In this document: positions 27,601 to 63,510 of the stretch, in pieces | How the letters are laid out: every line of letters starts with the position of its first letter | Numbering within the stretch: the stretch's first letter is position 1 | From: Hymenobacter jeollabukensis | GTDB lineage: Bacteria > Bacteroidota > Bacteroidia > Cytophagales > Hymenobacteraceae | Reading direction: 5' to 3' | Length of the DNA: 64,000 nt | Assembly: GCF_005771675.1 (NCBI RefSeq) | Contig: NZ_VAJM01000001.1 | Location: 558,001 to 622,000 of the forward strand | Position numbers and translations under genes: made by a program | Notes under the pieces: model-generated | Database searches by the model: none | Seen by the model: only the letters and a program-made list of their open reading frames with translations | What the model was told of the DNA's origin: nothing

Positions 27601-28362
27601 TTAGGGCTGCACGCGCGAGGCGGCTACCTGCGGCGCAGGAGCCAGCACCGGCGCCGCAGGGGTGGCCGTCAGGCGCACCACCAGCTCGGCCGTGACGTCG
27701 GCCAGCTCGGCCCAGGCGGGCAGCACGAAGTACTGCTGCTGAAACCCGTCGCGCACGATGGGCGTGGCCAGCGCGGTGCTGACTTCGAGCGGCTGCCGGG
27801 GCGCTTCGGCGGCCAGGCAGTGGTGCAGCTCGGCCGCCGAGGAGAGCAGGCCGGCGCCGTACACGCGCAGCGCCTCGCCTTCTTGCACGAGACCAAACTC
27901 GGCGGTGTGCCAGAACAGGCGCACCAGCTGCTGCGCGGCCTGCGCGTCGTGCAGGTGGTGGCGGGCTATCTGGCCAAAGTGCGCCAGCCAGGCGGCCCAC
28001 TCGGGGTCGGTGAGCAGCGGCAGGTGGCCGAAGGCGTCGTGGAAGAGGTCGGGCCCGGCGAGGTAGTCGAAGAACTGCATGGAGCGCACCCAGTGCGTGA
28101 CGGGGTACTTCCGCTCGGCCAGCAAACCCAGGAACGTCTGGTCGTCGACGCGGCCGGGGGCGGGCACCACTTCCCAGCCGCTGAGGCGGTGCAGGCGCTG
28201 GCTCAGGGCGTTGAGGTCGGGGGCGGCGTCACGGCTGAGGCCGAGGCGCTGCACGCCGGCCATAAAGGGCGCCGCGGCCCGGCGGTGCAGCAGGGCGGTC
28301 TGACGGTCGAAGAGAACTTTCCACACGAGGTGGTCTTCGGCGGTGAAGAGCGGGGCTTTCAT
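27601..28362 (-). CDS. phhA: Phenylalanine 4-monooxygenase (phenylalanine hydroxylase)
   Basis: 253 aa, the size of the bacterial single-domain enzyme. It hydroxylates Phe to Tyr with O2, Fe(II) and a tetrahydropterin. Iron ligands are H108 and H113 (FHDAFGHLPLL) and E155 (FWHTAEFGL). The substrate-binding region RKYPVTHWVRS is conserved. The ATG at 28362 is used; a TTG three codons upstream is unlikely. A strong terminator ends about 13 nt before the start, and further upstream is a promoter and a 30-codon leader ORF, so expression appears attenuated. It lies near the trp/aroF operon. Both a catabolic and a Tyr-supply role are possible; the leader favours Tyr/Phe control. Confidence 0.95.
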   Translation of the reverse strand: MKAPLFTAEDHLVWKVLFDRQTALLHRRAAAPFMAGVQRLGLSRDAAPDLNALSQRLHRLSGWEVVPAPGRVDDQTFLGLLAERKYPVTHWVRSMQFFDYLAGPDLFHDAFGHLPLLTDPEWAAWLAHFGQIARHHLHDAQAAQQLVRLFWHTAEFGLVQEGEALRVYGAGLLSSAAELHHCLAAEAPRQPLEVSTALATPIVRDGFQQQYFVLPAWAELADVTAELVVRLTATPAAPVLAPAPQVAASRVQP

Positions 28363-28375
28363 AACTGGCAAGGCA

Positions 28376-28413
28376 GAAAAAAAGCCCGGCCTCCGTGGTG
28401 CGGAGCCGGGCTT
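28376..28413 (-). terminator. Attenuator terminator in the phhA leader
   Basis: On the minus strand AAGCCCGGC-TCCG pairs with CGGA-G-GCCGGGCTT (one bulged base, 5-nt loop) and is followed by seven T. It ends 13-14 nt before the phhA ATG, leaving no room for a promoter after it. Eight bases of its 5' arm (CGGCTCCG, complement of 28401-28408) are perfectly complementary to CGGAGCCG inside the leader ORF (complement of 28477-28484), giving an alternative antiterminator pairing. Confidence 0.8.
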
Positions 28414-28450
28414 GGTTGATTTCAGGTCGGAAAAACGAGCTGCGGGGGCT

Positions 28451-28543
28451 TCATTTCCAGACAGTTTGCAACGGCACGGCTCCGGGCCCTTTCAGGGGCT
28501 GGACGTACATCGTAAAGTTGCAATTAATGGTCTGGTGCAGCAT
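28451..28543 (-). CDS. Putative phhA leader peptide (30 aa)
   Basis: Too short for ordinary gene calling. It starts at an ATG 8 nt after the -7 box, so it is almost leaderless, and encodes MLHQTINCNFTMY then VQPLKGPGAVPLQTVWK. Phe10 and Tyr13 precede the antiterminator strand (nt 60-67 of the ORF, codons 20-23). Trp29 is the penultimate residue. The stop is 37 nt before the terminator. The layout closely matches the trp leader in this window (29 codons, stall codons 12-14, antiterminator at nt 58-64, 43 nt to the terminator). Translation is inferred, not shown. Confidence 0.65.
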   Translation of the reverse strand: MLHQTINCNFTMYVQPLKGPGAVPLQTVWK

Positions 28544-28551
28544 GGTGACTA

Positions 28552-28582
28552 CAAAAGTAGCAGGATTTCAGACTTGTGCAAA
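28552..28582 (-). promoter_or_regulatory. Consensus Bacteroidota promoter of phhA leader
   Basis: On the minus strand TTTG (complement of 28579-28582), exactly 19 nt, then TACTTTTG (complement of 28552-28559). Both boxes match TTTG-N19-TAnnTTTG fully. Initiation about 5-7 nt downstream would give a leader of roughly 180 nt before phhA. Confidence 0.85.
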
Positions 28583-39482: not shown

Positions 39483-39542
39483 ACTGAGTCGGTAGAGAAA
39501 ACGGGGCGGCAGAAGGCGTAGCGGCAGGCTCCGAAAAGCAAC

Positions 39543-39566
39543 AAGCCCGGCTGGCGGGCCGGGCTT
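39543..39566 (-). terminator. trp attenuator terminator
   Basis: On the minus strand AAGCCCGGC pairs perfectly with GCCGGGCTT around a 6-nt loop, then GTTGCTTTT. It lies 43 nt after the leader-peptide stop and 60 nt before trpE. CCCGGCC in its 5' arm (complement of 39557-39563) can instead pair with GGUCGGG of the leader ORF (complement of 39636-39642, one G-U), the antiterminator. Confidence 0.85.
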
Positions 39567-39609
39567 GCACTGCTAAGCATTCAAGGATAGCAGGGTCAAC
39601 TGCTTCGAT

Positions 39610-39699
39610 TTAGGCTATACACGCAAAGAGCTGGTCCCGACCGGCAAAACGGCTGGACCACCACCAAAGCGGCAGATGCAGGTTCGAAGCGAGTGTCAT
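39610..39699 (-). CDS. trpL: trp operon leader peptide
   Basis: 29 aa, starting MTLASNLHLPL then three consecutive Trp codons (W12-W14), then SSRFAGRDQLFACIA. Three TGG codons in a row are exceptional in a random ORF and mark a trp attenuator leader. TGGTCC at the last Trp codon can pair with GGACCA 17 nt later (1:2 hairpin); GGTCGGG (codons 20-22) can pair with the terminator arm (2:3). Stalling at Trp codons would mask strand 1, favour 2:3 and permit transcription of trpE. Confidence 0.9.
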   Translation of the reverse strand: MTLASNLHLPLWWWSSRFAGRDQLFACIA

Positions 39700-63044: not shown

Positions 63045-63510
63045 CGCAAGTGATGCGCCGCCCCACCGCTGCGCCCGCAAGGGCGGAGAGGAAAGTCCGG
63101 GCAACGCAGAGCACCCTGCTTCCTAACGGGAAGGACGGCGGCTGGGAACGGCCGCCGGACAGCCAGTGCCACAGAAAACTACCGCCGGGCGGTGGAATGG
63201 TGATTGGTGAACTAGTGAGTCAATCGTCCAACGACACTCACCATTTCACAATTTCACCACCTCACCATCCGGTAAGGGTGAAAAGGTGCGGTAAGAGCGC
63301 ACCAGCGGGCGGGTGACCGTCCGGCTGGGTAAACCTCAGGGGTTGAAAGGCCAAATAGGCCGGCATGCCAGGCTTCGGCTTGGCAACGGGCGGCTCGTCC
63401 GGTCGGCGGGTAGGCTGATGGAGCCCGCGCGCGAGTTCGGGCCTAGATAAATGGTGGGGCCGCTGCCGCAAGGGGGCGGACAGAACCCGGCTTACAGGCG
63501 CATCACTGCG
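63045..63510 (+). ncRNA. rnpB: RNase P RNA, bacterial class A
   Basis: Catalytic RNA of RNase P, which trims the 5' ends of pre-tRNA. P1 pairs TGATGCGCC (about 63051) with GGCGCATCA (about 63497). Conserved core: GAGGAAAGTCCGGGC, ACAGAAA, GGTAAGGGTG, GTGCGGTAAGAGCGCACC, GGTAAACC, GGCCAAATAGG and ACAGAACCCGGCTTA. The RNA is about 466 nt, longer than the usual ~380-400. The extra length is mostly a palindromic element in the P12 position (63190-63270). A terminator follows. Confidence 0.95.
63190..63270 (+). repeat. TTTCACC/GGTGAAA palindromic element in P12 of RNase P RNA
   Basis: Left part GGTGGAATGGTGATTGGTGA (63190-63209), right part CTCACCATTTCACAATTTCAC (63238-63258, given here to 63257 as 20 bases CTCACCATTTCACAATTTCA). 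The halves are imperfect reverse complements and the centre is CAATCGTCCAACGACA. It resembles the trpG-trpD element (37287-37383), sharing ACTCACCATTTCA exactly. Confidence 0.75.

Follow-up and report, generated by a model that had tools for sequence, protein, structure and literature searches.

A Conserved Leader Before a Phenylalanine Hydroxylase Gene of Hymenobacter jeollabukensis Is a Candidate Translation-Linked Transcription Attenuator

Introduction

Ribosome-mediated transcription attenuators of the trp, his, and pheA type, which act on amino acid operons, have been modelled (PMC1183508, in the sections consulted). In Flavobacterium psychrophilum, amino acid operons are reported to be subject to leader-peptide attenuation (PMC9723704); this species belongs to the same phylum as the organism discussed here and provides attenuators of the same kind, and the sections of that paper considered here do not name phhA. 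Table 1 of PMC2864571, the part of that paper used here, includes the Bacteroid-trp RNA motif (RF01692) as a candidate cis-regulatory element of Bacteroidetes. Leader ORFs of the ermC type are said, in the portion of PMC2965389 that was consulted, to register slow translation with no cognate amino acid involved.

The window analyzed here is a stretch of 64,000 nucleotides from Hymenobacter jeollabukensis, in which a leader precedes a phenylalanine hydroxylase gene (hereafter phhA1). Like the trp, his, and pheA attenuators, this leader has a promoter, a short ORF, an antiterminator, and a terminator; unlike them, it has no run of cognate codons, and its target is phhA1, the iron ligands of which are changed in many relatives. 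It also resembles the leaders of a paralogue, phhA2, in which a short ORF lies right behind the promoter box and a terminator stands before a phhA gene; those leaders differ in carrying three to six Tyr codons in the control window and in belonging to the other paralogue, and the antiterminator was tested for phhA1 only. RF01692 is absent from the Rfam matches of the phhA1 leader, both at the gathering score and among five weak matches (E up to 10). The ermC leader controls translation, whereas the phhA1 leader would control transcription, and we infer a likeness of trigger only. None of the matches listed in a literature search appeared, from title and opening of the abstract, to concern attenuation of phhA; with subscription journals mostly uncovered, this is weak evidence of novelty.

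Leader Architecture

The features of the phhA1 leader lie on the reverse strand, and the promoter, the 30-codon ORF, the antiterminator strand, and the terminator before phhA1 were all confirmed where the original prediction had placed them. The promoter (28552..28582), TTTG-N19-TACTTTTG, comprises a TTTG element at 28582-28579 and the -7 box TACTTTTG at 28559-28552, both read from the sequence. It is the sole match in the 64 kb to the Bacteroidota-type pattern TTTG-N17-21-TAnnTTTG, for which 0.24 matches are expected and at least one is found in 22 of 100 shuffles; a TAnnTTTG box also occurs at the eight loci of the genus. According to the part of PMC9723704 consulted, this box sits at -12 to -5 in Flavobacterium, and the same placement would put the phhA1 transcription start near 28547, with the ATG about 4 nt farther on, making the ORF nearly leaderless.

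The leader ORF (28451..28543), which reads MLHQTINCNFTMYVQPLKGPGAVPLQTVWK and ends in a stop codon, begins 8 nt past the -7 box, and its frame is kept in relatives. Folding and co-adaptation define a helix, P1, with its 5' strand UUGCAAC around codons 7-9 (28517..28523) and its 3' strand GUUGCAA in codons 24-26 (28466..28472). Between these strands lies a hairpin region, P2, in codons 14-21 (28482..28502), where both-side changes are more numerous than anywhere else in the alignment (53 cells); in the window's own leader five of the seven aligned pairs form, and the computed fold adopts a shifted register. The antiterminator strand delta, CGGAGCCG, occupies nt 60-67 of the ORF (28477..28484), and its partner zeta, CGGCTCCG, is a segment of the 5' arm of the terminator (28401..28408); both are recognized from the sequence, covariation, and swap tests.

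The intrinsic terminator (28377..28413), with a run of 7 T at 28383-28377, precedes the first gene, phhA1 (27604..28362), leaving a gap of 14 nt to the ATG at 28362. A transcription start within this gap had been named as a point that would count against the original prediction, and no TAnnTTTG box is seen by eye in those 14 nt. A simple terminator scan does not list the phhA1 terminator, and by the same scan the region has no excess of terminators (9 vs. 10.3 expected); the call is therefore based on the fold together with conservation. The window's leader gives a better fold than shuffled sequences do (z = -2.39), and 3 of 200 shuffles were equally good.

The trp leader that had served as the yardstick of the prediction is indeed present in the window (ORF MTLASNLHLPLWWWSSRFAGRDQLFACIA followed by a stop, 39699-39610, containing three Trp codons; a terminator-like site lies at 39568-39541), and the layout of the phhA1 leader resembles it. 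Rfam returned no match at the gathering score for the trp leader (39541-39699) or for the phhA1 leader, the latter having five weak matches below that score. Elsewhere in the window, Rfam identifies a bacterial RNase P class A RNA (63050-63510).

Conservation and Sampling

A close phhA1 is present in all eight genomes examined from the window's genus, the window's own (G000) included, and in all eight it is preceded by a TAnnTTTG box, followed by an ORF 26-30 codons long and the same terminator; the ORF of L015 is counted from an inner ATG, the longest ORF there starting at an upstream one. In the family as a whole, 182 of 200 genomes contain a phhA match of some kind. Upstream regions were collected for 118 phhA genes, made up of 38 loci and the best 80 listed rows by score (second matches of G146, G156, G168, and G170 were passed over). 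Of these regions, 91, the window's among them, have the phhA1 leader type and 27 a Tyr-rich type (L108 being counted in the latter only), and none has neither. Leaders were chosen as open frames, and no region was dropped for want of one.

Two further clades supplied 12 more leaders of the phhA1 type, for a total of 103. The 91 leaders are related to one another, equal to about 37 at 85% identity. A non-redundant set of 57 was chosen, 55 of which entered alignment A2 (L055 and L074 were left out), and start codons were shifted in eight leaders for alignment. One leader, that of L050, has no T run, and five named loci (Hymenobacter, Solirubrum) were left out of further analysis.

When a leader model, R1, was run against the order, 79 of 291 genomes had a match at E 0.01 or better. 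All 29 hits with an E value under 1e-12 fall in the window's family, and those compared by coordinates directly precede phhA1. The model misses at least three g5 genomes (G032, G049, G089) in which such a leader is found on reading. Twenty weak matches were read, with genes named by eye from the start of the protein and PF00351 confirmed for the L159, L167, L171, and L173 genomes: three are phhA1-like leaders, seven are Phe/Tyr-rich leaders before a DAHP-synthase-like gene, two precede phhA with Tyr-rich leaders, one is hisH-like, and seven look like chance.

Co-Adapted Helices

When stems were ranked by the number of cells changed on both sides in a column-pair scan of A2 (55 leaders), P2 came first with 53 and a four-pair part of P1 second with 18; delta:zeta, with 10 pairs, had 15, the terminator had 9, and short stems without clear meaning ranked between them with 14-17. 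For P2 and the terminator together, 88.3% of cells are paired, and both-side changes number 71 against 31.9 in shuffles; for the antiterminator the figures are 87.3%, 15, and 5.8. The covariation score was reached in 0 of 500 shuffles in either case. Counts of both-side-changed pairs and of further pair types were not above shuffles for P2 and the terminator (126/500 and 75/500) or for the antiterminator (415/500 and 236/500).

A swap test, which compares the duplex energy of a leader's own strands with that of strands exchanged between leaders and needs no exact columns, gave z values of -9.8 for P1, -9.1 for P2, -5.9 for the antiterminator, and -6.7 for the terminator, none equaled in 2,000 permutations. 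The permutations retain the relatedness of the leaders, and eight control pairings carrying equal relatedness had no own-strand advantage. A leader's own pairing beats distant ones in 82% of leaders for P1, 91% for P2, 65% for the antiterminator, and 85% for the terminator. Once the 12 added leaders are included, for a total of 67, all four helices still hold (0/2,000 each). The antiterminator's own pairing is the better one in 50 of these 67, and no effect is seen for four control pairings. The 12 added leaders alone, tested for three of the helices against pairings with other clades, favor their own strands in 11 of 12 cases for the antiterminator (3/2,000), 10 of 12 for P1 (4/2,000), and 12 of 12 for the terminator (0/2,000).

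These comparisons support co-adaptation of P1, P2, the antiterminator, and the terminator. They point to a conserved antiterminator that would compete with the terminator, although of the four helices it does least well in the swap tests. The original prediction had been staked in advance on conservation of the ORF and of the delta:zeta pairing in relatives, and both are kept; chance complementarity of delta and zeta is rejected on the swap tests. Two other approaches were less informative. Mutual information with APC over the full alignment mainly reflected clade structure and a poorly aligned tail, and it was set aside; RNAalifold on clade alignments yielded structures that differ between clades except for the terminator and a central hairpin.

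Probable Translation of the Leader ORF

The phase of delta relative to the ATG is identical in all 55 leaders, though the distance between them takes three values, and the phases of the untranslated spacer from delta to the terminator are spread 22/17/16. Stops fall within the first 26 codons in frame +1 of 81 of the 91 leaders and in frame +2 of 54. Among 34 independent close pairs, pN/pS is 0.67 in frame versus 1.14 and 1.05 in the other frames. In these sequence comparisons the frame is preserved and the peptide is weakly constrained. The short ORF behind the promoter is probably translated, as its frame suggests.

What the Leader Reads

The original prediction took Phe10 and Tyr13 for stall codons, at which a shortage of Phe or Tyr would hold the ribosome, free the antiterminator, and raise phhA expression. 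The geometry is right for this, Phe10 is present in all eight genus members, and Tyr-rich leaders precede both the paralogue phhA2 and phhA in other families. The codons themselves argue otherwise. They are single codons, and Tyr13 is found in five of the eight genus leaders, being replaced by Cys twice and by Gln once. Among the 103 leaders, 31 lack Phe and Tyr at codons 5-15 and 12 lack them throughout the ORF; two adjacent Phe or Tyr codons occur at codons 3-17 in 8, and three Tyr within the first 17 codons in none. At codons 5-15 of these leaders Phe (5.4%) and Tyr (2.5%) are at the background of position-preserving shuffles (5.1% and 3.2%).

Stalling on Phe or Tyr therefore seems an unlikely account of the phhA1 leader. 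The expectation that relatives would have conserved short ORFs with Phe and Tyr codons holds for the ORF and fails for the codons. That low Tyr should raise phhA fits phhA2 rather than phhA1, all 27 leaders of the phhA2 type having three to six Tyr at codons 5-17. Phe10, kept as it is throughout the genus, may have a genus-specific role. Because the cognate codons are missing, the phhA1 leader is not filed with the Phe/Tyr attenuators; on the comparative evidence it appears to be a conserved translation-linked attenuator outside that class.

We also regard as unlikely that the nascent peptide (in the manner of TnaC) or the RNA itself (as a riboswitch) senses a ligand such as an aromatic compound or a pterin. 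The structure is conserved and the product belongs to a pterin-dependent family, as such a sensor would suggest, but the constraint on the peptide is weak (the in-frame pN/pS given above), and few positions outside the pairing strands are nearly invariant. Trp29, put forward earlier as a possible TnaC-like sensor, is present in three of the eight genus leaders, and a conserved Trp accompanied by other conserved peptide residues was not found. No covariance model of a T-box or an Rfam riboswitch matched the leader at the gathering score, the five weak matches all lying below it; the riboswitch reading is rated low because invariant unpaired positions and Rfam matches are lacking.

Sensing of one other amino acid, with cysteine as the best candidate, is more doubtful still. 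Cys makes up 9.1% of codons 5-15, where position-preserving shuffles give 2.6%, and 0.6% of 12 proteins of the window; it lies within codons 8-15 in 92 of the 103 leaders. Hardly any Asp, Glu, Gly, or Trp occurs at codons 5-15 of the same leaders. Against this, 11 leaders have no Cys at codons 8-15, the leaders are related, and the TGC of codon 8 alternates with CGC, CAC, and CAA. We know of no link between cysteine and phhA.

That the whole arrangement is an ordinary terminator of an upstream operon joined to a chance ORF and chance complementarity, as the nearness of phhA1 to DAHP-synthase and trp-like genes in several genomes might suggest, is highly implausible in view of the co-adapted helices, the conserved phase, and the leader's own promoter box.

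Proposed Mechanism

We favor, with moderate confidence, a transcription attenuator worked by translation of the nearly leaderless 30-codon ORF and probably triggered by slow translation of its early codons. P1, formed by the early codons and codons 24-26, would enclose P2 and delta, and delta would either form an antiterminator with the terminator's 5' arm or leave that arm to the terminator; both elements draw support from the comparison of leaders. A ribosome delayed at about codons 4-14 would keep P1 open and leave delta free, and phhA1 would be transcribed; a ribosome running on would cover delta, and transcription would stop. Unlike those of the window's trp leader and of the phhA2 leader, the putative control window contains no run of codons for a single cognate amino acid. 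The trigger is most likely a general slow-down in the early codons, or a signal acting on the ribosome, rather than the supply of Phe or Tyr as such; we propose the slow-down by elimination.

In a mask model of this mechanism, 55 leaders from three clades were folded as far as the terminator's 5' arm, the ribosome being treated as a mask. Stalls at codons 8-14 raise the antiterminator fraction to as much as 0.90, 0.91, and 0.66 in the three clades; it falls to 0-0.19 with the ribosome at codon 18 and to 0 at codon 20. The modelled geometry suits a switch that comes on when the ribosome is held up in the first half of the ORF. In the ribosome-free state the fractions are 0.82, 0.73, and 0.21, favoring the antiterminator in two of the three clades (0.82 and 0.73), the window's included, and with the ribosome at the stop codon they are 0.59, 0.77, and 0.11. 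The mask model does not account for the off state, because these ribosome-free and stop-codon states already favor the antiterminator in two clades.

The phhA1 Protein and Its Gene Neighborhood

The product of phhA1 matches Biopterin_H (PF00351) in Pfam and, aligned with solved bacterial enzymes, retains the His, His, and Glu residues that we take to bind iron. Among the first 22 g5 relatives examined, five have all three ligands and 17 have Gln for Glu. All 17 Gln variants also have Gly for the preceding Trp in the same motif (YG..TVQFG vs. YW..TVEFG), and in 16 of them the Asp that follows the first His is replaced by Gly or Cys. At seven g5c loci both His residues are lost and the Glu is kept, and at six g6 loci all three ligands are lost; the proteins on the phhA2 side keep all three in 18 of 18. 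Many relatives of phhA1 (L026-L045, L239-L251) are probably altered or non-catalytic, to judge from their alignment; the window's copy keeps the ligands.

With neighborhood genes named by eye and by mutual BLAST, a relative of DAHP synthase lies within a few genes of phhA1 in five of seven neighborhoods, four of which also have trp-like genes; none was found in the neighborhoods of G153 and G058. In the window itself a DAHP synthase, confirmed by Pfam, is within a few genes of phhA1. The window's genome also encodes a prephenate dehydrogenase, a prephenate dehydratase, and a pterin dehydratase, and phhA1 is therefore probably not its sole route to Tyr. The match to prephenate dehydratase (G000:C13:32681-33198) is split into two pieces that overlap slightly and lie in different frames, which may reflect a frameshift.

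The Paralogue phhA2 and Other Tyr-Rich Leaders

The second phhA of the window's genome, phhA2 (L021; G000:C26:263522-264211), has a leader that reads MLTRFSSRYYYRSCQPTGFGSGRVCATAPEQTT, with a Tyr run. The Tyr-rich type carries three to six Tyr at codons 5-17 in every one of its 27 leaders. At the phhA2 loci (L016-L023, L086-L122) a Tyr-rich leader peptide is combined with a terminator, and in the genus the ORF begins about 4 nt past the -7 box. In a tree of 61 phhA proteins, one branch (100/100) separates 17 genes with Tyr leaders from 43 others, one protein being unlabelled; leader type follows the phhA gene tree.

In other families, orders, and classes of the phylum, 129 genomes have a phhA match. 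Twenty upstream regions were read, among which an ORF with at least three Tyr precedes phhA in six and one with two Tyr in two more, and none was found in 12. Tyr-rich leaders stand before phhA at four of five loci of genus g3, at all three phhA2 loci of g6, and at both loci of family f19.

We put forward, tentatively, a possible history in which phhA was duplicated and one copy has an attenuator of tyrosine codons; the other would keep the full machinery without amino acid specificity, as a switch responding to translation speed (or something else), controlling a protein whose iron ligands are altered or missing in many relatives and whose gene often lies close behind DAHP synthase and trp genes. 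Two paralogues within a single genome that share one kind of RNA switch, in the presence and in the absence of cognate codons, make attenuator sensing beyond the cognate amino acid testable. These leaders also add phhA to the genes of Bacteroidota with Tyr/Phe-rich leader peptides, together with a DAHP-synthase-like gene in another family.

That last gene belongs to family f19, in which a Phe/Tyr-rich leader, for example MLITAAIYFTFFYFYFR, precedes it at L162-L166, L169, and L170.
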